Of a stretch of 64,000 bases of DNA, positions 22,130 to 32,885 are shown piece after piece. Positions within the stretch are counted from its first letter, which is position 1. The number at the start of each line of letters is the position of its first letter. Made by a program: the position numbers and the translations under genes. Location: contig JAOAPY010000029.1 of assembly GCA_025463135.1 (NCBI GenBank), positions 62,001 to 126,000 on the forward strand, read 5' to 3'. The notes beneath the pieces are model-generated. The model was not told where the DNA came from. It worked only from the letters and a program-made list of their open reading frames with translations, and made no database searches. Origin of the DNA: Acidobacteriota bacterium (GTDB taxonomy: Bacteria > Acidobacteriota > Blastocatellia > Pyrinomonadales > Pyrinomonadaceae).

Positions 22130-23560
22130 ATGGACCAAAAGATTAGCGTAATGAAATTCGGCGGCACGTCAGTTGGTGACGCCGACTGCATTAAACGCGC
22201 CGCGTCGATTGTAATTGATGCCGCCAGGACCGGCCCTCTGGTCGTTGTTGTCTCGGCAATGAGCGGAATAACCAATCGACTCATTGACGCTGCGCATGCT
22301 TCCGCCAACGGCGAAACCAATGCAGCCGGCGCGTTGGCGGCGACGTTGCGCGACCAACATGTGGCGGCGATCAAGATACTTGTTAGCGGCCAAGAAGCGG
22401 CAAGTCAGCTGACGGTTGAAATCGAAAAGATCATCGGCGAAGTCGAGGACTTGTGTCGCGGTACAGCATTACTGCGCGAGCTGACGCCACGCGCGCTGGA
22501 TTCAATTTCCAGCGCCGGCGAGCGCTTATCGGCGCGCTTGCTGGCCCAGGCGATTTGCGAACTTGGTTGCCATGCCAAAGCGGTTGACGCGACTGAGCTG
22601 ATCGTCACTGATAACACCTCAGGTCGTGCTGAGCCGCTCACGGTTGAGACACGACAACGGACTATTACAAGATTGACCCCACTGCTTGAATCCCACTCCG
22701 TGCCCGTCGTCACCGGTTTTGTGGGCGCTACGACAGAAGGAACTTTGACTACCCTCGGACGCGGCGGCTCGGACTATTCGGCGACCATTCTGGGCGCGGC
22801 ACTCGATGCCGGTGAGGTGATCATCTGGACCGATGTGGATGGAGTTTTGACTGCCGATCCGCGATTGGTTCCGGACGCGCGCACGCTACAGGAAATCTCT
22901 TACAACGAAGCTGCGGAACTCGCCTACTTTGGCGCGAAAGTGCTGCATCCAAAGACACTGCGCCCGGTTTCCGAGGCAGGCATCCCGGTCTGGATTCGAA
23001 ATAGTTTTGCGCCGGAACGACCGGGAACCCAAATCACGACCACCGGCCATCCGACAGCGCGGGGCGTCAAAGCGATCACGGCGATCGGCGATGTAAGTCT
23101 GATTACGGTTGGCGGCCGCGGCATTGTCGGTGTGCTCGGGGTCGCAGCCAGGACTTTTACCGCGGCAGCCACAGCGCAGGCGAACGTATTGCTGATCTCG
23201 CAATCGTCTTCCGAGAATGACATTTGTTTCATCATCAACTCCGTTGACGAAGCGCGCACTGTTGCCGAGTTGCGGCGCGCCTTTGCGTTCGACCTGGCTC
23301 ACAAGGAAGTGGAACACATCAGCGTCGATTCGGATATAGCCATCGTCGCCGTAGTAGGCGATCGGATGCGCGGCATGCCCGGTATCGCCGGGCGCACTTT
23401 CAGCGTGCTGGGCCGGCGCGGCATCAATATCATCGCCATCGCGCAGGGATCATCGGAATATAACGTCTCGTTTGTGGTGCAAGCCGGATCGATGCGCGAC
23501 GCTGTGCAGTCATTGCATAGCGAGTTTGGGCTGCAGCGGCCGGCGGATCGGGTAGAGTGA
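22130..23560 (+). CDS. lysC: Aspartokinase (monofunctional)
   Basis: This 476-residue kinase phosphorylates aspartate, the first step to lysine, threonine, methionine and diaminopimelate. The amino-acid-kinase domain covers about 1-300 (MKFGGTSVGD, SSAGERLSARLLAQA, TTLGRGGSDYSATILGAAL, WTDVDGVLTADPR, SYNEAAELAYFGAKVLHP). Two ACT domains follow (about 320-390 and 400-465; GVLGVAARTF, RMRGMPGIAGRTFSVLGRRG), where lysine or threonine would bind. There is no homoserine dehydrogenase fusion. It lies between ilvD and the his promoter. Confidence 0.93.
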   Translation: MDQKISVMKFGGTSVGDADCIKRAASIVIDAARTGPLVVVVSAMSGITNRLIDAAHASANGETNAAGALAATLRDQHVAAIKILVSGQEAASQLTVEIEKIIGEVEDLCRGTALLRELTPRALDSISSAGERLSARLLAQAICELGCHAKAVDATELIVTDNTSGRAEPLTVETRQRTITRLTPLLESHSVPVVTGFVGATTEGTLTTLGRGGSDYSATILGAALDAGEVIIWTDVDGVLTADPRLVPDARTLQEISYNEAAELAYFGAKVLHPKTLRPVSEAGIPVWIRNSFAPERPGTQITTTGHPTARGVKAITAIGDVSLITVGGRGIVGVLGVAARTFTAAATAQANVLLISQSSSENDICFIINSVDEARTVAELRRAFAFDLAHKEVEHISVDSDIAIVAVVGDRMRGMPGIAGRTFSVLGRRGINIIAIAQGSSEYNVSFVVQAGSMRDAVQSLHSEFGLQRPADRVE

Positions 23561-23660
23561 GGTTTCATAATCAAGAGAATGTTGCCGCACCCACGCCTCA
23601 ATAAGGGACAAATTCTTTGCGGCTCAAATGTCGGAGTCACTCCAATAGCGAAACAAACAT

Positions 23661-23690
23661 TTGACATCACGGAACGCACTCGGTTATAAA
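23661..23690 (+). promoter_or_regulatory. Sigma-70-type promoter of the his operon
   Basis: TTGACA (23661-23666) and TATAAA (23685-23690) are separated by 18 bases. Transcription would start near 23697, about 14 bases before the leader-peptide ATG, which is the layout expected for an attenuated operon. Confidence 0.7.
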
Positions 23691-23710
23691 ACTATTCGTT
23701 AACTAAGCAA

Positions 23711-23797
23711 ATGATTTTCAGCAGCACACATCACCGTCATCGCGCACACCATCATGCCAACCATCATGGCATCGAGGCAGCGCGTGGTCGGTTGTGA
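23711..23797 (+). CDS. hisL: Histidine-rich his operon leader peptide
   Basis: A 28-codon frame starts at ATG 23711 and ends at TGA 23797. Eight of its residues 7-19 are histidine (HHRHRAHHHANHH), far beyond chance. It lies between a strong promoter and an intrinsic terminator just ahead of hisZ. In known his leaders, ribosome stalling at His codons when charged tRNA-His is short lets an antiterminator form; here the layout supports the same mechanism. The peptide itself needs no function. No strong ribosome site is visible in the short 5' region. It is too short for ordinary gene calling. Confidence 0.88.
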   Translation: MIFSSTHHRHRAHHHANHHGIEAARGRL

Positions 23798-23886
23798 AGC
23801 TGAATGAGAATTAGTTAGATAGGCTAACAACTGGGAATCCAAAACCCGCTGCCCGTGACTTAGGTGTCCGGCGGCGGGTTTTCTTT
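23776..23886 (+). promoter_or_regulatory. his attenuator: antiterminator and terminator hairpins
   Basis: The terminator is AAAACCCGCTGCC (23841-23853) pairing with GGCGGCGGGTTTT, followed by CTTTT. Its 5' arm CGCTGCC (23847-23853) is also the exact complement of GGCAGCG (23776-23782), which lies near the end of the leader-peptide frame. A ribosome stalled at the last His codons (to 23767) leaves GGCAGCG free, so the antiterminator forms; a ribosome at the stop codon covers it, so the terminator forms. A small extra stem, GTTAG/CTAAC, sits in between. Confidence 0.8.
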
Positions 23887-23920
23887 TCCCACTTGCGCAA
23901 CGAATCGGGGCGTCAACTCT

Positions 23921-25045
23921 ATGTCTGAGCCACTCTCCAGAATTCCCGGGGGCATGCGCTATTACTTTGGTCCGGAGGCGCAGCTGCGCCGCCAGGTTGA
24001 AGCAACCGCGATGACGATATTTGATGGTTGGTCTTACGAAGAGATCACTACGCCGACTGTCGACTATTACTCGCTGTTCGAGCTCGGCATGGGCCAGGCC
24101 GAAGCCCAGCGCGCTTTTCGCTTCACTGATCTTGATGGACGAATGCTCGCGCTCAGGCCTGACGTGACCTCGGCCGCGGCCCGCGCGGCGGCCACGCTGT
24201 TTGCCGAACGCGAACGACCCTTGCGCCTGTGCTACGCCCTGCCGGTATTTCGCCAACAACCACAATCGCACGCCGAGTGGAGAAGGGAATCAACCCAAAT
24301 GGGCTGCGAACTCATCGGCGCGAATACCAAAGTCGCTGATCTGGAAGTGCTGCTGATAGCCGCTGAGTTACTTCGTTCCCTGGAGTTCGACGGCGGATAC
24401 GCAATCACCCTTAACGATGTTGGCATTTTCAATGGCGTAGCCGAACGCCTCGCGCTGGATCCATTACGCAGAGAAGAGATGCGTCAGCTGATCGACGTGC
24501 GCAACGCCGCAGACCTCGAGCTTTTTCTTACGCCTGACACTTCTCCGGAAGAGCGACAGGCGTTTGCGCAACTCACGCAGCTTTCGGGAAAGCGCGAGAC
24601 CTTAGCGGCGGCCCGGCGCGTTATTTCCAACGATCAATCGCTGGCGGCGTTGGACCGTCTCGAAGGACTGTGGGATGTCGTTGAATTATTGGGCCTCAGC
24701 GATTCGTTTGAGATTGACCTGGGCGATGTGTCACGCCTCGACTACTACACGGGCCTGACGTTCAAGATTTATGTGAACGGGATCGGCGTTCGCGTAGGCA
24801 GCGGTGGTCGCTATGACGGTCTGACGGCCAACTTTGGCAAGGATGAGCCGGCCGTTGGTTTCGTGTTGGACTTGGATGAGTTGACGGATGTCCTCGGAGC
24901 GCGGGCTATGAAGGATACTGTCGCGCGTCAGACTCTCGCTACTCCGTCCGGAATAACGGACGGCGATCCGGCCACGTTATTTCGCGGCGTGCTGGACCGG
25001 CGCGCCAAAGGTGAACGAGTCCTGCTGGATCTGATCTCGATTTGA
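23921..25045 (+). CDS. hisZ: ATP phosphoribosyltransferase regulatory subunit
   Basis: From ATG 23921 this is a 374-residue HisRS-like protein that pairs with short-form HisG. It keeps the class II synthetase core: IPGGMRYYFGPEAQLRRQVE, the TPTVDYYSLFE region, ALRPDVTSAAARAA, and a C-terminal LDYYTGLTFKIYVNGIGVRV with SGGRYDGL. It lacks a HisRS anticodon-binding domain. The longer frame to 23864 would overlap the attenuator, so I reject it. The next gene is short-form HisG, as expected for a HisZ partner, and the two together catalyse and control the first step of histidine synthesis. Confidence 0.92.
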   Translation: MSEPLSRIPGGMRYYFGPEAQLRRQVEATAMTIFDGWSYEEITTPTVDYYSLFELGMGQAEAQRAFRFTDLDGRMLALRPDVTSAAARAAATLFAERERPLRLCYALPVFRQQPQSHAEWRRESTQMGCELIGANTKVADLEVLLIAAELLRSLEFDGGYAITLNDVGIFNGVAERLALDPLRREEMRQLIDVRNAADLELFLTPDTSPEERQAFAQLTQLSGKRETLAAARRVISNDQSLAALDRLEGLWDVVELLGLSDSFEIDLGDVSRLDYYTGLTFKIYVNGIGVRVGSGGRYDGLTANFGKDEPAVGFVLDLDELTDVLGARAMKDTVARQTLATPSGITDGDPATLFRGVLDRRAKGERVLLDLISI

Positions 25046-25057
25046 TGAGGTGAAACC

Positions 25058-25702
25058 TTGCCGGAATTAACCATTGCAGTCGCGAAAGGCAGATTGCAGG
25101 CGGATGCGCTTGCCTTACTGGCGCGGGCCGGAGCGGTCGTGTCGAGTGCTGCCCTGTCGTCGCGCCGTTTGGCTTTGGAGGACGAATCCGGCCGCTATCG
25201 ATTCATTTTTGTAAAGCCGTCGGACGTGCCCGTTTATGTTGAGCATGGGATCGCGGACTGCGGTGTTGTCGGGCGCGATGTGTTGCTGGAATCCGAAACG
25301 GACCTTTTGCAGCCGCTGACCCTCGATATTGCTCGCTGCCGCATCGTGGTCGCTGCACGCACGGGTACCTCATTGAGGGGACTGGGGATGCTCAGGGTAG
25401 CGACCAAATATCCGCGTCTTGCCGCCGCACATTTCGGGGCACAGGGAAGGCCGGCGGAGATCATCGAGCTTTCCGGCTCGGTGGAGTTGGCGCCCGTGCT
25501 GGGCCTGGCTGACTGCATCGTCGACCTCGTGGAAACAGGGGCAACGTTGCTTGAGAACGGGCTCGAGGAAATTGAAGTGATCGGCGAGTCTACCGCTCGT
25601 CTGGTCGTTAATCGCGCCAGTTACCAATTGAAAGCCGCGGCTGTTGCGACTTTGATTGCGGCGCTTGAAGTGGCTAAGGCGCAGGTGAGTAACCTTGATT
25701 GA
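25058..25702 (+). CDS. hisG: ATP phosphoribosyltransferase, short form
   Basis: This 214-residue protein starts at TTG 25058 with GAGGTG five bases upstream. Motifs include TIAVAKGRLQADALALL, the GIADCGVVGRDVLLE loop and, at the PRPP-binding site, ADCIVDLVETGATLLENGLE. It lacks the C-terminal ACT-like regulatory domain of long HisG, consistent with the HisZ partner encoded directly before it (12-base gap). It transfers phosphoribose from PRPP to ATP, the committed step. Its end overlaps hisD by eight bases. Confidence 0.95.
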   Translation: MPELTIAVAKGRLQADALALLARAGAVVSSAALSSRRLALEDESGRYRFIFVKPSDVPVYVEHGIADCGVVGRDVLLESETDLLQPLTLDIARCRIVVAARTGTSLRGLGMLRVATKYPRLAAAHFGAQGRPAEIIELSGSVELAPVLGLADCIVDLVETGATLLENGLEEIEVIGESTARLVVNRASYQLKAAAVATLIAALEVAKAQVSNLD

Positions 25703-26996
25703 TATTATTCACAGTAATGAAAAGGAACGACTGGCGTTCAAGCTGCAGACGATCCGCAATCGCAACGTCGCCCTGAACGACGAGTTGATGAGCGAAGTGG
25801 CCGCAATTATTCGCGAAGTGCGCGCCCGCGGCGATGCGGCGCTAATTGATTACGCGAAAAGGTTCGATGGCATTGTAATGCAGACGTCCGACCTGCGAGT
25901 CAGCGAGGTGACTTTGCGGGAAGCGGCAACCAGCGTTGAGCCGCAGGTCATCGCCGCCTTGCGAGAAGCAATTCGCCGCGTGCACATTTTTCATGAGCAC
26001 GAACTCCAATCGTCGTGGGAGCTGCAAGCCGAAAATGGAGTGCGGCTGGGACAACGCGTCGCACCCCTCGAGTGTGCCGGCATGTACGTGCCGGGGGGCA
26101 CTGCAGCCTATCCGTCATCAGTCGTGATGAACATTGTGCCGGCGCAGATTGCCGGGGTTGACCGAATCGTTGTAGCGACGCCGCCGCGAGCATTGCAGGA
26201 AAACCCGGCTGTGGCCGCGGCGTTGATCGAGCTCGGCGTCAGCGAAGTTTATGCGGTTGGCGGCGCGCAGGCGATCGCGGCGCTGGCCTTTGGCACCGAA
26301 ACCATTCCTCGGGTCGATAAGATCACGGGTCCGGGCAACAAGTACGTCGCCGCCGCCAAGAAACACGTTTTCGGCATGGTGGGAATCGATTCCATTGCCG
26401 GCCCCAGCGAAGTTGTCATCATCGCTGATGATTCGGCGCCAGCCTCGTTTGTAGCGAGCGATCTGCTGGCGCAAGCCGAGCATGGCGAAGATGCTTCGGC
26501 CGTGTTGATAACCACCAGCGAGCAACTGGCGCGACAGGTATCGGCGGCCATCGCGCAACAGATCCGCAAACTGCCCCGCGCAAACTTAATCGAGAAGTCC
26601 CTTGCGTCTTACGGCGCGATCATCATGGTTGCCGACACTTTTGAAGCTTGCAGATTGGCCAACGAACTTGCTCCTGAGCATCTGGAGATTATGGCGCGTG
26701 ATGAAGAGTGGATCGCGGCGCAGGTCCGTCATGCGGGCGCGATCTTTTTTGGAGATCAAACACCTGAAGCGGTGGGCGATTACCTGGCGGGCCCGAATCA
26801 TGTACTACCCACTGGCGGGACGGCGCGGTTTTCATCGGCGCTGGGTGTGTATGATTTCGTGAAGCGCACCAGCATGTTGAAATTCACGGCGAGTGAGCTG
26901 CGCCAGACAGCTCCATTGATTGCCACGCTGGCGCGGTCTGAAGGCCTCGAAGCACACGCCCGCTCAGTACTGATCCGAACGGAACCAGGCGTTTAA
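25695..26996 (+). CDS. hisD: Histidinol dehydrogenase
   Basis: This 433-residue enzyme catalyses the last two oxidations, histidinol to histidine, using two NAD. It starts at a TTG within the hisG end. Zinc ligands appear in LLAQAEHGEDA and the catalytic Glu-His pair in NELAPEHLEIM; other family blocks are TGPGNKYVAAAKKHVFG and IAGPSEVVIIAD. The length is normal. The TTG start and eight-base overlap suggest translational coupling to hisG. Confidence 0.95.
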   Translation: MIDIIHSNEKERLAFKLQTIRNRNVALNDELMSEVAAIIREVRARGDAALIDYAKRFDGIVMQTSDLRVSEVTLREAATSVEPQVIAALREAIRRVHIFHEHELQSSWELQAENGVRLGQRVAPLECAGMYVPGGTAAYPSSVVMNIVPAQIAGVDRIVVATPPRALQENPAVAAALIELGVSEVYAVGGAQAIAALAFGTETIPRVDKITGPGNKYVAAAKKHVFGMVGIDSIAGPSEVVIIADDSAPASFVASDLLAQAEHGEDASAVLITTSEQLARQVSAAIAQQIRKLPRANLIEKSLASYGAIIMVADTFEACRLANELAPEHLEIMARDEEWIAAQVRHAGAIFFGDQTPEAVGDYLAGPNHVLPTGGTARFSSALGVYDFVKRTSMLKFTASELRQTAPLIATLARSEGLEAHARSVLIRTEPGV

Positions 26997-27057
26997 AGTA
27001 CCGACTTCTGTCGGGTAGTTTAGTTTGAGAAAAGAGCCTAATTAAAGTTCGGAACCT

Positions 27058-28149
27058 ATGTGCCGCGCTGGGTTTATGTCCATGAACATCATCGACTCAA
27101 TCAAAGATTCAGTTCGGAGCTTGCGCGCGTACACCCTGGCGCCGGATCGAGCGTCGGTGAAGCTCAACCAGAATGAAAATCCCTGGGATGCCCCGCTCGC
27201 GATCAAGCAGGAGACACTGAAGCGTCTCGACGCTCGCGCCTGGTCGCGCTATCCGGACTTTGCGCCGATAGAACTCCATAAGCGCCTCGCTGAGTTCAGC
27301 GGTTGGTTCCCAGAGGGTGTTATCGCGGGAAACGGATCGAATGAATTGATCCAGGCGCTTTTAGTGATCACAATCGCAGCAGGGAAGCGCGTGCTCATCA
27401 ATGAACCGACCTTTGCGCTCTATCGACAAATTACGACCGTGTTGGGAGGCGAAGTATTGAGTGTGCCGCTCAACGGGGCATTGTCCTTTGATACACGGTC
27501 GCTCCTGGCTGCGATCAAATCTTCCGCGCCCAATGTAGTTATCATCTGTTCGCCGAATAATCCCACCGGCTGTGTGATGGAATTGTCCGACCTGGTTTCA
27601 GTGCTGGAGGAAACCCGTGGACTGGTGGTCGTTGATGAGGCCTATTTCGAATTTTCCGGACAGACGGTCGTTCCGCTTCTGCGGCAGCATACTAATCTTG
27701 TCGTATTGCGCACTTTTTCCAAGGCGATGGCCCTCGCAGGTCTGCGCGTCGGGTACCTTCTGGCGGCGCCTGAGTTGGTGCGCGAAGTAGCTAAAGCTGT
27801 CCTCCCGTATAACCTTAACTTCGTTTCGCAGACCGCGGCGGAGGTTTCACTCGAGATGTATGAGGCGGCATTGCGACCGCTGGTGCAGACGATGATCAGG
27901 GAACGAGAGCGACTGCACGGTGAATTGAGCAATATCAAAGGACTTTCCCCGGTACCGTCGCGAGCAAACTTCATGGTCGTGCGTTCAGCACTCGAACCCA
28001 AAAAGGTTTTCGCGGGCTTGTTGCAGCAGGACATACTGATTCGCGATGTCAGCGGCTATCCCATGCTCAGTGAATATTTCCGCGTCAGTGTTGGGACGCC
28101 GCGAGAGAATGATCTCCTGGTCAAGGCCCTGAAAGAGATCTTGAGGTGA
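27058..28149 (+). CDS. hisC: Histidinol-phosphate aminotransferase
   Basis: This fold-type I PLP enzyme has up to 363 residues. It shows the substrate-binding start ([12 protein letters not shown]), [33 protein letters not shown] and the PLP lysine in [16 protein letters not shown]. It converts imidazole acetol phosphate to histidinol phosphate with glutamate. The start is uncertain: ATGs at 27058, 27076 and 27082 are all in frame, and the family similarity begins near 27082 ([14 protein letters not shown]). The gap to hisD is 61 bases. Its stop overlaps or abuts hisB. Confidence 0.93.
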
Positions 28150-28154
28150 AAGCG

Positions 28155-28757
28155 ATGTCCAAAAAGAACCGCACGCGCTCTGCCGTGATCGAACGACAAA
28201 CAAAAGAAACGCAGGTGCACCTTGCTCTCGACCTCGATGGCCGGGGCAAGTCGCAGGTGAACACCGGGCTGCCTTTTCTCGATCACATGCTCGATTTGTT
28301 TGCGCGTCACGGATTGTTTGATCTCGAGGTTACTTGTCGGGGCGATCTGGAAATCGACGATCATCATTCAGTCGAAGACATTGCGCTGTCATTGGGCCAG
28401 GCCTTTCGTCAGGCGTTGGGTGATAAGACGGGCATTGCGCGTTACGGCGCGGCCCTGGTCCCGATGGACGAAGCCCTGTGCCGGGTGGTGATCGATCTGT
28501 CCGGACGTTTCTATCTGGTTTATGAAGTGAAAACCAAACGACAAATGATTGGTAACTTCTCCGTAGAATTGGCCGAACATTTCTGGCGCTCGTTTGCGGA
28601 GAGCTTGCAGTGCAACCTGCATATCGACCAGCTTCGCGGCCGGAATACGCACCACATTCTGGAAGCGACTTTCAAAGCAACAGCACGCGCGTTACGACAG
28701 GCAGTCGAGCGCGACCCCAGGATCGAAGGAGTGTTGAGCACCAAGGGGACGTTATAG
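28155..28757 (+). CDS. hisB: Imidazoleglycerol-phosphate dehydratase (stand-alone)
   Basis: This 200-residue enzyme carries the two manganese-binding repeats of the family: [36 protein letters not shown] and, near the end, [21 protein letters not shown] 28155 is preferred because GAGGTG lies six bases upstream, within the hisC stop; a GTG at 28146 would overlap hisC. There is no fused histidinol-phosphatase domain, which is supplied by the hisN gene downstream. Confidence 0.95.
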
Positions 28758-28762
28758 CAGCC

Positions 28763-29389
28763 ATGGCTCGCATCGCGATCATTGATTACGGAGTGGGAAA
28801 TCTTCGTTCCGTCGAAAAGGCTTTTGCCGCCACCGGCCACGACGCGGTGGTCAGCAGTGACGAACAGATCCTGCGACATGCGGACAAGTTAGTGTTGCCA
28901 GGCGTCGGGGCTTTCGCGGCGTGTATGCAGGCGCTGGGCGCGCGTGGGTTCGATGAACTGGTGCGTGAGCGGATCGCTGAAGGTACGCCATTGTTAGGTG
29001 TGTGCGTGGGCATGCAGATGCTCTTTGACGAATCAGAAGAGTTTGGGAGGACTGCAGGGTTGGGGCTGTTACACGGCCGCGTGCGCCGCTTTGGCAGCAG
29101 CCTGGTGGTGCCGCAGGTTGGCTGGAACCAGGTGCGACAATGCGCGGCTGATCCATTGCTTGCCGGAATTCCGGATAACAGCTTTTTCTATTTCGTACAT
29201 TCGTATTTTTGTGAGGCGACTGATGCCTCGGTCATCATTGGCGAGACTGACTATGAATCTAAATACGCATCTGTTGTCGCGCAGGGAAATATCTGGGGCG
29301 TGCAGTTTCATCCCGAGAAGAGTCAGGCAGCGGGACTGCAGTTGTTGGCGAATTTTGCCGCCGTCCGACAAACTTCAGTTTGTCGTTGA
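28763..29389 (+). CDS. hisH: Imidazole glycerol phosphate synthase, glutaminase subunit
   Basis: This 208-residue class I amidotransferase has an N-terminal IAIIDYGVGNLRSVEKAF, the nucleophile in LLGVCVGMQMLFDESEEFG and the His-Glu pair in WGVQFHPEKSQ. It makes ammonia for HisF. It starts six bases after the hisB stop. The natural family end (LQLLANFA) is followed by VRQTSVCR and a stop, and those last codons are read from a REPIN-like palindrome (29363-29385), so the repeat supplies both the C-terminal tail and the stop codon. Confidence 0.95.
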   Translation: MARIAIIDYGVGNLRSVEKAFAATGHDAVVSSDEQILRHADKLVLPGVGAFAACMQALGARGFDELVRERIAEGTPLLGVCVGMQMLFDESEEFGRTAGLGLLHGRVRRFGSSLVVPQVGWNQVRQCAADPLLAGIPDNSFFYFVHSYFCEATDASVIIGETDYESKYASVVAQGNIWGVQFHPEKSQAAGLQLLANFAAVRQTSVCR

Positions 29390-29442
29390 CCCACGTAAAC
29401 AGCTTGCTTTGGGAAACTTCGACAAGCTGAAGCTTGTCGGAC
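29363..29442. repeat. REPIN-like palindrome pair, copy overlapping the hisH end
   Basis: The left unit 29363-29385 begins GTCCGACAAACTTCAG and the right unit 29420-29442 ends CTGAAGCTTGTCGGAC; the spacer is 34 bases. The left unit encodes the last residues and almost reaches the stop of hisH, and the right unit ends four bases before the hisF ATG. Confidence 0.75.
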
Positions 29443-29446
29443 AAGT

Positions 29447-30214
29447 ATGTTAGCCAAACGCATCATTCCCTGTCTCGACATCGATCGCGGTCGCGTGGTC
29501 AAGGGCATTCGCTTTGTCGCGCTGGTCGATGCCGGCGATGCGGTTGAGCAGGCGCGCAATTATGACCGCGAAGGAGCGGACGAGTTGACCTTCCTCGACA
29601 TCACCGCATCGTCCGACAAGCGCGCCATAATTATGGACCTCGTGCGTCGCGTTGCCGATGAAGTCTTCATTCCGTTAACGGTAGGAGGAGGCCTTAATTC
29701 CCCGGACGACATTACCGCGGTTCTGCGCGCCGGCGCCGACAAAGTATCCCTGAACACGGCCGCGGTTGAGCGGCCCAACCTAATCGCTGAAGGAGCGGAG
29801 ACCTTTGGCAGCCAATGTATCGTTGTAGCGATTGACGCCCGTCGCCGCAGCGCGAGCGATCCGGACCTCGGGTGGGAAGTCTTCACGCATGGCGGCCGGC
29901 AAAGTGTTGGTTGGGACGCGGTGGAATGGGCGGTCAGGGCAGAGCGGCTGGGCGCCGGAGAAATACTGTTGACCAGTATGGACCAGGACGGGACTCGTGC
30001 GGGTTACGACCTGGAGCTGATGCGGGCGATAACTTCCGCGGTCCGCATTCCGGTCATTGCTTCAGGTGGGGCTGGACGTCTAGAACATTTTTACGATGCG
30101 TTGGTAGAAGGCGGGGCGAGTGCGGTCCTGGCAGCCTCACTCTTTCACTTTGGCGAATACAAGATTGCGGCAGTGAAGGATTACCTGCGCGGGCGAGGAG
30201 TAATGGTGAGATGA
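29447..30214 (+). CDS. hisF: Imidazole glycerol phosphate synthase, cyclase subunit
   Basis: This 255-residue TIM barrel begins [20 protein letters not shown]. The two catalytic aspartates fall in CLDID and VVAIDARR; phosphate loops are VGGGL and ASGGAG. With HisH it converts PRFAR and ammonia to IGP and AICAR. Its ATG follows a palindrome unit directly. It overlaps the next gene by four bases (ATGA), typical of coupled translation. Confidence 0.95.
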
Positions 30215-30858
30215 AGATTGCAATCGATGAATTGAAGTTTGACGAGCGAGGTCTTATTCCCACTGTGGTCCAGGACGCGCGCACGCGCAGGATCCTCACG
30301 CTCGCTTACATGAACCGCGAGAGTCTGGCCCGAACCATCGACACGGGGGAAACCTGGTTCTGGTCGCGCGCGCGCGCGAGCTTGTGGCATAAGGGCGAGA
30401 CCTCGGGCAATACTCAGCGCGTGGTCGACATCCAGGTTGATTGTGACGGCGATGCACTGAATGTCCTGGTGGAAGCGGCAGGTCCTGCCTGTCACACCGG
30501 CGCCTCTTCCTGCTTTCACAACGAAGTTCGCGAAGCTGAGAAGTTGGCGGGTAGTGAGGAAGAAGATTCAACTGATTTGGGAACAGTTCTGAGTGGCCTG
30601 TATTCACTCGTCCGGTCGCGTAAGCAGGAACTGCCGCAGGGATCGTATACGACGTACCTGTTCCAGGAAGGTCTTGACAAGATTCTCAAGAAGGTCGGTG
30701 AAGAAGCAGCCGAGACTATCATCGCTGCCAAGAACGAAGATCGCATGGAGCTCGCCAACGAATCCGCCGACCTTTTGTATCATCTGCTTGTTCTATTTGT
30801 TGAGCGGGGGCTGACGCTCGCAGAAGTCAGCACTGTGCTTCGCGATCGCCGAAAGTAG
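30211..30858 (+). CDS. hisIE: Bifunctional PR-AMP cyclohydrolase / PR-ATP pyrophosphatase
   Basis: This 215-residue fusion begins with HisI (residues 1-110): [37 protein letters not shown] and the metal-binding VDCDGDALN and CHTGASSCF. HisE follows (about 120-213): [33 protein letters not shown]. It catalyses steps two and three of the pathway. The ATG at 30211 overlaps the hisF stop; a much longer frame extending back to 29872 is only hisF in another frame. Confidence 0.95.
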
Positions 30859-31169
30859 CACAGACTTCAGGGAACTTTGATTTAAGTCGCCAGGGCATCG
30901 AGTTTGCCGCAGCCCGCGAAGCGACAGAAAGATCATGAAACAATGAAGTTCGAAGATCATTTGCCTGTAATAAAAGTTCTGTCGCCCACTCTGTGGGCTT
31001 GGATTTTTCTCCGTGTTCATCCTGGGGTTGCGCTGCGCTTCATCCCGGGGCTTTATGCTTACACCCGCTTCGCGGGTTGAAGAAACTTGATCGAAGATTC
31101 CTTCAGTCAGTGTGGCCATCGATTGGAAAGGATGTTGACGAGAGAGAAACAGACTGAAGTCTGTGCTAC
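30855..31169. repeat. Full copy of the about 200-bp dispersed repeat inside a second palindrome pair
   Basis: The outer units GTAGCACAGACTTCAGG (30855-30871) and CTGAAGTCTGTGCTAC (31153-31168) face each other. Between them lies the repeat also seen beside the IS, here with AGCCCGCGAAGCGACAG, TCTGTCGCCCACTCTGTGGG, CCTGGGGTTGCGCTGCGCTT and ACACCCGCTTCGCGGGTT. The pattern is of one repeat inserted between the halves of another. It fills the hisIE-hisN gap. Confidence 0.6.
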
Positions 31170-31176
31170 CTGGGAC

Positions 31177-31956
31177 ATGACTACAGACAAAAAAGAGCTC
31201 AAACAAATTTTGGATTTCGCCGTCGATATCTCGCGCGGGGCGGCGGCCATCACCAGCGATTACTTTAAGGGCACCTTTGTCGCCGAACGCAAGTCCGATA
31301 ATTCACTGGTGACGACTGCGGATCGTGAGGCCGAATTCTACCTGCGCGCGCGCATTGCAGAGACCTTTCCTGATGACTCGATTCTGGGCGAAGAAGCTGG
31401 TGAAACCATGGGAACTTCGCATCGACGTTGGATTCTTGATCCCATCGACGGAACTTTTTCGTTTGTGCATGGAGTCCCGCTCTATGGTGTGTTGATTGGT
31501 TTGGAGATTGATGGCGAGCCCTCGCTGGGGGTCGTAAATCTTCCGGCATTAGGTGAGATCGTGTCTGCCGCACGAGGATTGGGATGCTACTGGAACGGAG
31601 AGCGGGCCAGGGTTTCGGCGACTTCGTCATTGGACCAGGCCCTGCTCCTTTCTACTGACTTTGGCGTGTGCGAGCAATATGGATTTGGTCCCGCGGCCGC
31701 ATCGCTGCAACATCAAGTTCAAGCACGACGCACCTGGGGTGACGCGTACGGACATATGCTGGTCGCCACGGGGAGGGCGGACATTATGCTCGATGCCGTG
31801 ATGAACGTTTGGGACTGCGCAGCGTTGCTGCCTATTTTGGAAGAGGCAGGCGGCACCTTCACTGATTGGAAGGGAAACCGCACGATTCACGGTGGCAATG
31901 CGATTGCGACCAACGGGCTTCTGTTTGAGAGCGTGATGAAAATCGTGAGGGAGTGA
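31177..31956 (+). CDS. hisN: Histidinol-phosphatase, inositol-monophosphatase type
   Basis: From ATG 31177 the protein is 259 residues, an IMPase-fold metal phosphatase. Metal sites: ILGEEAGE, WILDPIDGTFSFVHGVPLYG, and VWDCAALLPILEEAGG near the C-terminus. IMPase-type HisN replaces HisB-N or PHP-type HisJ in many bacteria, and its place between hisIE and hisA supports histidinol phosphate as the substrate. A longer frame to 31087 starts within repeat DNA. Alternative: a general inositol or sugar phosphatase, less likely in this operon. Confidence 0.88.
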   Translation: MTTDKKELKQILDFAVDISRGAAAITSDYFKGTFVAERKSDNSLVTTADREAEFYLRARIAETFPDDSILGEEAGETMGTSHRRWILDPIDGTFSFVHGVPLYGVLIGLEIDGEPSLGVVNLPALGEIVSAARGLGCYWNGERARVSATSSLDQALLLSTDFGVCEQYGFGPAAASLQHQVQARRTWGDAYGHMLVATGRADIMLDAVMNVWDCAALLPILEEAGGTFTDWKGNRTIHGGNAIATNGLLFESVMKIVRE

Positions 31957-31967
31957 AAGCAGACACG

Positions 31968-32082
31968 GAGAAGGAGAGACACGAGGATGTTTCATTGAAG
32001 GTTATCCTACTTTGACGACGAACAAACTAATTGCCGGAAACATCCTCGTGTCGTCCCTTCTCCGTGTCTCCGTGTCCTCTCT
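31968..32082. repeat. Inverted repeat of GACACGGAG units between hisN and hisA
   Basis: GACACGGAGAAGGAGAGACA, then CGAGGATGTTTC, is mirrored by GAAACATCCTCGTGTCG and CCTTCTCCGTGTC across a loop of about 50 bases. Same class as the ilvB-ilvN spacer at 16309-16534. Confidence 0.65.
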
Positions 32083-32096
32083 TTGCCAATAAACCA

Positions 32097-32885
32097 ATGC
32101 TGATCATACCCGCTATTGATCTTCGCGAAGGCCGTTGCGTGCGGCTGACGCAGGGCCGGAAAGAAGATGTAAAGATTTATGATAGCGATCCGTTAGTGAT
32201 CGCTGAGCAGTATCGAGACAGCGGTGCTGAGTGGCTGCACGTAGTCGATCTTGATGGCGCCTTTTCCGACCCAAACTCGCGTAATCGCCAGGTGGTGCGC
32301 GAAATTGTCTCGCGGATAAAATTACCGGTGCAGTTTGGGGGCGGCTTGCGCAGTCTTCAGGATATCGAACAGGTGATTGAGTTGGGTGCGGCGAGAGTAG
32401 TGCTGGGCACGCTTGCAGTCGAGTCTCCGGAAATTCTGGAGAAATCGCTGCAGCTCTTCGGAAGCAATCGTGTAGTAGTGGGCATTGACGCCCGTGATGG
32501 ACGCGCGCTGACGCGCGGGTGGGTGAACGATACCGATCTCGCTGCCATCGAACTGGCCCAACGAGTTGCTCGGCTTGGGGTCGAGCGCGTCGTGTTCACG
32601 GACATAGCGCGTGACGGCATGTTGACGGGCGTCAATGTTGAGCAGACTTGCGCCGTTGCGCGCGAGTCCGGTTTGAAGGTCACCGCTTCCGGCGGCGTCG
32701 CTTCGCTTGCTGATTTGGCTCGATTAAGGGCGGCGAGCGAGTGCGGAATCGACAGCATCATTATCGGCAAGGCGCTTTATGAAGGTCGCTTCACGCTCGA
32801 GGAAGCATTGCGGGAAGAAAGCGCTGCGCGGTTCCTGAATGTTGAAAACGATGGTGCCGGGCCAGCTGAGGATGGTAAGAAATAG
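32097..32885 (+). CDS. hisA: ProFAR isomerase
   Basis: This 262-residue TIM-barrel isomerase converts ProFAR to PRFAR. ATG 32097 begins MLIIPAIDLREGRCVRLTQG, the exact family start; the longer frame reads through repeat DNA. Catalytic aspartates lie in PAIDL and VFTDIARDGMLTGVN; phosphate loops are FGGGL and ASGGVA. It is the last his gene and is followed by an intrinsic terminator. The last 15 residues are an acidic tail past the family norm. Confidence 0.95.
   Translation: MLIIPAIDLREGRCVRLTQGRKEDVKIYDSDPLVIAEQYRDSGAEWLHVVDLDGAFSDPNSRNRQVVREIVSRIKLPVQFGGGLRSLQDIEQVIELGAARVVLGTLAVESPEILEKSLQLFGSNRVVVGIDARDGRALTRGWVNDTDLAAIELAQRVARLGVERVVFTDIARDGMLTGVNVEQTCAVARESGLKVTASGGVASLADLARLRAASECGIDSIIIGKALYEGRFTLEEALREESAARFLNVENDGAGPAEDGKK

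Follow-up and report, generated by a model that had tools for sequence, protein, structure and literature searches.

The window analysed in the present study is a stretch of 64,000 nucleotides from the genome of an Acidobacteriota bacterium, in which a presumed histidine operon begins with hisZ (23921-25045, plus strand; TIGR00443 at 273.9 bits, cut-off 271.65; ATG start codon at 23921). The rest of the presumed operon, namely hisG, hisD, hisC, hisB, hisH, hisF and hisIE, lies downstream on the same strand (25058-30858) and was identified from NCBIfam matches over the cut-off, and the leader described below thus adjoins the genes of its cognate pathway. An ORF at 32031-32885 with a His_biosynth match (PF00977) is probably hisA. 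Between this ORF and hisIE, an ORF of the inositol monophosphatase family (PF00459) was observed at 31087-31956, and this gene could be a histidinol phosphatase. An aspartate kinase gene (22130-23560) lies upstream of the leader. A first-pass annotation had assigned the DNA to a likely acidobacterium, and this assignment holds, as the closest HisZ relatives, at 72-76% identity, comprise two from Pyrinomonadaceae bacterium and one from Chloracidobacterium sp. On the basis of such relatives, the genome probably belongs to the family Pyrinomonadaceae, in the class Blastocatellia.

The features of an attenuator were observed in order on the plus strand before hisZ. The promoter consists of TTGACA (23661-23666), an 18-nt spacer and TATAAA (23685-23690), and transcription would be expected to start near 23697. 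The leader peptide ORF, MIFSSTHHRHRAHHHANHHGIEAARGRL, occupies 23711-23797 with 28 codons and a stop codon at 23795, and encodes eight His in 13 residues (codons 7, 8, 10, 13, 14, 15, 18 and 19); a His-rich ORF is kept before hisZ in the family. A hairpin termed P1, with the core ATGCCA/TGGCAT (23752-23775), lies inside the His-codon stretch directly 5' of the motif GGCAGCG and is part of a larger leader hairpin. GGCAGCG itself (23776-23782), which is 8 nt from the last His codon, forms the 5' strand of the predicted antiterminator, as judged from sequence, folding and comparison. An inner antiterminator helix, indicated by folding and a cognate-strand test, would pair GGTTGT (23790-23795) with ACAACT (23827-23832), with a weak hairpin between them. 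The terminator, identified from sequence, folding and covariation, consists of a 5' arm AAAACCCGCTGCC (23841-23853), in which CGCTGCC (23847-23853) doubles as the 3' strand of the antiterminator, and a 3' arm GGCGGCGGGTTTT (23870-23882) followed by a U-rich tail up to 23887; its stem comprises 13 pairs, including one G.U. The first-pass annotation had placed the promoter, the 28-residue His leader, GGCAGCG and the terminator in this order, and each was found where it had been placed, as was the exact complementarity of CGCTGCC to GGCAGCG. The 7-bp antiterminator pairing it described is likewise present, but the helix is longer, since the inner GGTTGT and ACAACT stretches pair too.

The automatic scans were less informative. 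The promoter scan of the window, whose -10 pattern must have T as its sixth base, reported no promoter, and the terminator scan, with a loop limit of 8, reported only a 5-bp hairpin at 23866-23879, compared with 0.6 terminators expected in shuffles. Given these limits and this expectation, the automatic scan alone gives the finding no support. In addition, a recognised Shine-Dalgarno core was not found for the leader ORF in the window, and its translation is therefore an assumption.

The His leader is conserved in Pyrinomonadaceae. In a search at E<=1e-30, hisZ was detected in 31 of 119 family genomes. One genome contributes two of the 32 loci examined, and two gene fragments were omitted. The rule applied asked for a 10-60-codon ORF that has four or more His in 13 residues and lies at most 700 nt upstream, and such a His-rich short ORF was observed before hisZ in 28 of the 32 loci. 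A 29th leader, with nine His, was recognised at L056, where the leader start lies beyond the contig edge, and L014 and L046 provide merely 141 and 230 nt of upstream sequence before the contig ends. Thus, L015, with hisZ and 700 nt upstream but no His leader, is the sole family locus with enough sequence and none; its terminator-like hairpin probably ends the preceding gene. This hairpin follows an upstream LysM-like ORF, named by eye. Across the 29 leaders, the number of His ranges from 4 to 10 in 13 residues, and the peptides are 24 to 44 residues long. The expectation that related genomes would keep the His codons before hisZ was therefore borne out.

The same rule was rarely satisfied elsewhere: 0/22 hisZ loci of other families (leaving out L029, with 8 nt upstream, L038, whose contig is as long as that of L016, and the Firmicutes loci L039-L042), 2/30 trpE loci, 0/30 DAHP synthase loci, 0/30 cysM loci and 1/30 pheA loci, the 30 loci per control gene being the best-matching of larger searches. 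In shuffled upstream regions of the family hisZ genes, it gave 11/320, and the weak, HisS-like matches L030-L032 were outside all counts. A looser stop-to-stop scan without a start codon detected frames with four His in 13 residues at four of the hisZ loci from other families (L018, L022, L163 and L170), and none of these frames is an ORF within the 10-60-codon rule. Twenty-eight family his leaders have their start codon within the contig, and in all of them, taking the best site within 140 nt, a perfect TTGACA lies 17-18 nt from a TATA-like hexamer. No Shine-Dalgarno core was recognised in 21 of these 28 leaders, including that of the window, and the mRNA from which several of the leaders are translated may be almost leaderless. 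The start codon was seen just 9-13 nt past the -10 box at eight of the 28 (L010, L023, L049-L053 and L055).

This conservation bears on whether the hairpin might simply terminate the aspartate kinase gene, with the His-rich ORF present by coincidence. The hairpin does lie downstream of that gene, and similar GC-rich terminators occur elsewhere in the family: of 20 matches away from hisZ of R1, a covariance model built on the his leaders, 12 resemble ordinary terminators or coding sequence (by eye). However, the promoter, the His ORF and the terminator are kept together in the family, whereas the sequence further upstream differs between loci (by eye), and a perfect TTGACA stands between the aspartate kinase gene and the terminator, so that we regard this explanation as highly improbable.

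The predicted folding of the RNA is consistent with a switch. At -81 kcal/mol, the RNA from 23697 to 23890 folds more stably than its shuffles (-53 +/- 4.2 kcal/mol; z -6.6), and its predicted fold consists of a long leader hairpin and the terminator. In this state, with no ribosome, five of the seven bases of GGCAGCG are paired inside the leader hairpin, for which covariation was checked in the core P1 only, and the terminator forms. In the fold of 23746-23853, which models a ribosome on the first His codons, with its footprint removed, and the polymerase just beyond the 5' arm, all seven bases of GGCAGCG pair with CGCTGCC and the inner stem forms. When the RNA is free only from 23811, corresponding to a ribosome at the stop codon, the terminator is predicted to form. 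The ribosome footprint sizes behind these designs are general knowledge. On 23746-23890, the terminator state reaches -54.1 kcal/mol and the antiterminator -44.0 kcal/mol. As the terminator is the more stable once its 3' arm has been made, the switch must work kinetically.

The geometry refines the logic initially proposed for the ribosome. Stalling at His codons would free the antiterminator at the earlier codons but not at the later ones, because the last His codon is only 8 nt away from GGCAGCG. Measured from the first base of the antiterminator 5' strand, the stop codon lies at 19 nt in the window, which fits the notion that a ribosome reading to the stop covers the antiterminator, but at 31-51 nt in 18 of the 29 leaders. 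In these 18 leaders, a terminating ribosome would cover the inner stem rather than GGCAGCG.

Comparison of the relatives supports both stems. When 15 of the 29 leaders were aligned with MAFFT, 94.5% of the cells of P1 and the terminator were paired, compared with 89.1 +/- 0.9 in shuffles, and the covariation score was 0.266, compared with 0.166 +/- 0.016; neither value was reached in any of 500 shuffles. Two-sided changes, seen in four pairs of P1 and the terminator, were unexceptional in number (72/500 shuffles), as were the pair types (203/500). P1 taken separately is 90.7% paired, with two-sided changes in two of five pairs. The outer antiterminator helix is 99.0% paired, compared with 97.4 in shuffles, a value matched by 8/500, and five of its seven pairs are invariant. 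For the inner antiterminator, an alignment-free test on all 29 leaders with segments that did not overlap within a locus gave -15.3 kcal/mol for cognate strands versus -12.1 kcal/mol for swapped strands (0/20000 permutations, which, as in the other permutation tests, ignore shared ancestry). A first coevolution test (0/20000) is not relied on, as its segments could overlap within a locus. At L010 and L011, the cognate pairing ranks below the majority of the swapped ones, and the automatic choice of the antiterminator strand is doubtful at L007, L008, L012, L023, L057 and L060. Without these six doubtful loci and the near-duplicates L050 and L052, the remaining 21 leaders gave -16.0 versus -12.1 kcal/mol (0/20000). 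An exact Watson-Crick complement over 7/7 positions was observed in 13 of the 29 leaders, compared with 207/5800 shuffles of the 29 leaders, and with G.U allowed in 20 of 29, compared with 572/5800. A 7-nt complement alone would be weak evidence, and it becomes weightier since 13 of 29 leaders have it. Thus, the two stems in the relatives show compensatory change or cognate fit, and an antiterminator exclusive with the terminator is supported across the relatives by sequence comparison and modelling.

These results also help to judge whether the ORF instead encodes a functional His-rich peptide, with the operon regulated in some other way. His-rich peptides are able to bind metals, and the residues past the His run, such as HRGSAL, are partly conserved. 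However, the conservation falls on residues encoded by GGCAGCG and the adjacent sequence and is thus accounted for by RNA pairing; the peptide length varies from 24 to 44 residues; and Cys and Phe/Tyr leaders of the same genome, described below, carry the codons of their own pathways. A functional peptide is therefore very hard to credit. Another explanation is that the leader senses a general slowing of translation, caused by antibiotics or stress, or works through Rho or through translation of hisZ. Leaders of the ermC type, which respond to slowing unspecific for an amino acid, are known (mentioned in PMC2965389), but in the family the His codons match the pathway, the terminator is intrinsic with a U tail, and the antiterminator strands coevolve; this explanation is marginally more credible than the two above and remains very improbable.

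Herein, we propose with high confidence, from sequence and modelling, that a ribosome-mediated transcription attenuator controls hisZGDCBHF-IE according to the supply of histidyl-tRNA. By anatomy, the window leader is a classical ribosome-mediated his attenuator, and by mechanism it is very likely one; its sequence elements, the mutually exclusive predicted folds, the family conservation and the covariation are shown here. We infer a transcription start, translation, stalling, termination and a histidine response that would proceed as follows. RNA polymerase would start near 23697, and a ribosome would follow on the leader ORF. When charged tRNA-His is scarce, the ribosome would stall at the early His codons, leaving GGCAGCG outside the leader hairpin. 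Together with the GGTTGT stretch, GGCAGCG would then base-pair with the RNA as far as CGCTGCC, the 5' arm of the terminator would be consumed, and transcription would continue into hisZ. When histidine is ample, the ribosome at the stop codon (23795) would sit on the antiterminator, and the terminator (23841-23882) would form. With no ribosome, the leader hairpin would hide part of GGCAGCG, and the terminator would form as well.

A second form of His leader was observed before hisG. In the family, hisG is present in 66 genomes, of which 35 have no hisZ. Among the latter, 20 loci were examined (L243, L251, L256, L258 and L261-L276, each with an open frame of at least 285 codons), and a His-rich leader precedes hisG in all 20, for example with the peptide IHHHHHAxHHHR..; the weakest, L261, has four His. 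The His codons are followed by a different hairpin, such as CGCGUGAACUAAU with AUUAGUUU..ACGCG, and in the cases read this hairpin shares sequence with the 5' arm of the terminator. Its antiterminator strands gave -14.4 kcal/mol when cognate and -12.3 kcal/mol when swapped (2/20000 permutations). A His leader was found before 0/24 hisG loci of other families of the class, many of which may follow hisZ. Thus, two RNA forms of the his attenuator appear to track the gene arrangement, with either hisZ or a long hisG.

Leaders rich in other amino acids were also revealed. Twenty R1 matches away from hisZ were fetched, of which eight are amino acid leaders and 12 resemble ordinary terminators or coding sequence (by eye), with some of these 12 scoring up to 34 bits (L084). 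As R1 is unspecific, the case for the Cys and Phe leaders draws on codon content and associated genes instead of the model score. Among the eight leaders are Trp leaders before trpE (NWYWR, L081), DAHP synthase (WYWW, L082 and L083) and trpD (WQSEWSW, L085), all in relatives, Cys- or Tyr/Cys-rich leaders before cysM (L086, L090 and L095), and a Phe/Tyr leader before chorismate mutase and prephenate dehydratase (L096). The gene names are best NCBIfam matches, over the cut-off for DAHP synthase and trpD and under it for trpE, cysM and prephenate dehydratase; by Pfam, the two L096 proteins match CM_2 and PDT over the cut-off.

In family loci, at least five Cys in 13 residues were observed before cysM in 10/30 and in none of five other locus sets, and at least six Phe/Tyr before pheA in 16/30, compared with 3/30 for cysM and none in four other sets. 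The window genome itself carries a Cys leader, MNYAYHCCCCTYCACCPGRDRESFRGSEEQVSS, before cysM (L160; genome G000, contig C6, minus strand, cysM match at 23379-24287), where the cysM ORF has 308 codons and the TAG reported there is its own stop codon. It also carries a Phe/Tyr leader, MTITTHTLFYFAFTYRFFFNGESGPAKCGREVRKT (L217, contig C31), approximately 517 nt before the match at 128202, which precedes chorismate mutase-like and prephenate dehydratase-like ORFs. Each of the two has a terminator-like hairpin, and inspection by eye of L160 indicates that UCGCGAUCGGG, immediately 3' of the Cys codons, can base-pair with GCCGGUCGCGA, an arm of the terminator. Leaders of the Cys and Phe/Tyr types may extend to other families, whereas no His leader was observed at the loci examined there. 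In other families of the class, a Cys-rich ORF was noted before cysM in 5/30 loci (L290, L291, L294, L301 and L302) and a Phe/Tyr-rich ORF before pheA in 8/30 (L311, L314, L315, L317-L319, L321 and L324). With the rules exchanged in these families, the Phe/Tyr rule gave 1/30 cysM loci and the Cys rule 0/30 pheA loci. A rule of at least three Trp does not separate the six locus sets (4/32, 2/22, 3/30, 3/30, 0/30 and 0/30), and the Trp leaders are therefore given as single cases. A candidate Trp leader before trpE of the window genome (L114) was rejected, as its W residues belong to the end of an upstream short-chain dehydrogenase-like gene (by eye).

Some of these leaders resemble each other across operons. 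With the terminator left out, a his-leader profile gives 23 bits (E 5e-7) for L081, a Trp leader, compared with 6.9 bits for the best leader-free control, and the other three Trp leaders were not among the matches listed for this profile. The Cys and Phe leader profiles find each other ahead of any control, with Phe windows that take in the start of the terminator arm. The shared promoter explains part of the cross-matches: after its removal, the order largely stays and the scores drop, with the best Trp match to the his profile at 13.4 bits (E 1e-3) and the best leader-free control at 5.1 bits. L171 and L172 then score approximately 7.5 bits, and L085 is not among the matches listed; the loci in the rows ctrl_L101, ctrl_L171 and ctrl_L172 also occur as Trp rows. 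These sequence tests are suggestive only. They may reflect shared descent with an exchange of codons, and convergence is the alternative. As a tentative and rather doubtful extension, peptide attenuation might be general for amino acid synthesis in Blastocatellia, and Pyrinomonadaceae attenuators might have been copied between operons, his with trp and cys with phe, the codon run being exchanged and the RNA switch kept.

In the present study, a complete his attenuator backed by comparison has been revealed in nearly every his operon examined in one acidobacterial family. The breadth of leader-peptide control in Pyrinomonadaceae is a more interesting outcome than the his attenuator alone: the his, Cys, Phe/Tyr and Trp leaders support peptide attenuation as a widespread strategy and offer many natural variants for studying how attenuators arise, move and change specificity.

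No Rfam family matched at its gathering score on the his leader or on eight loci with other leaders, and at E<=10 the region 23650-23930 gave three sub-threshold Rfam matches (best E 0.9), among which His_leader (RF00514), which we take to be the enterobacterial his leader family, was not found. Similarly, a T-box for His gave no covariance-model match at the gathering score or at E<=10. The enterobacterial his attenuator, hisL, is described in the available part of PMC9413887 as having tandem His codons, alternative helices and an intrinsic terminator. The present leader likewise combines a short ORF carrying consecutive His codons with alternative helices and an intrinsic terminator before a his operon; unlike hisL, the Pyrinomonadaceae leaders precede hisZ or a long hisG, and in most of them no Shine-Dalgarno core was recognised.

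Counterparts that include hisZ-linked leaders have been predicted in Firmicutes. According to the accessible parts of the reports concerned, his attenuators occur in Firmicutes groups (PMC9413887), with His leader peptides predicted before hisZ in bacilli and C. difficile (PMC2965389, PMC9413887, PMC4833913), in bacilli before hisZ together with a hisS paralogue (PMC2965389, PMC9413887), and with his-operon leaders in Peptostreptococcaceae and Erysipelotrichales (PMC2965389, PMC9413887). The available portion of PMC4833913 mentions regulation upstream of hisG for gammaproteobacteria and upstream of hisZ for Firmicutes; for Acidobacteria, it gives only leader-gene distance statistics. In the Firmicutes hisZ loci retrieved here (L039-L042), which may differ from the published ones, a His-rich upstream frame was not found. 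Compared by description only, from those parts, the hisZ leaders of Firmicutes and Pyrinomonadaceae share a His-codon leader, a terminator and an antiterminator, and they differ in phylum. The first-pass annotation called peptide his attenuation before hisZ in a likely acidobacterium notable; according to these sources, hisZ-linked peptide attenuation itself had already been predicted in Firmicutes. Among the matches listed in the open-licence literature, no description of peptide attenuation in Acidobacteriota was found, and such work may exist.

For the other amino acids, the available part of PMC8632094 describes uORFC-8-2 before cysS in Rhodobacterales, with Cys codons, and uORFC-13-1 before aroF in Acholeplasma, with Phe codons, and that of PMC1262725 describes Cys leaders in Mycobacterium without a conserved terminator. 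On these descriptions, the Cys and Phe/Tyr leaders of the window genome follow the same principle, but in other genes and phyla, and the Cys leaders observed here precede cysM with a terminator-like hairpin, unlike those described. The similar leaders for histidine and other amino acids in the related bacteria suggest that classic leader-peptide control is used well beyond the bacteria famous for it.
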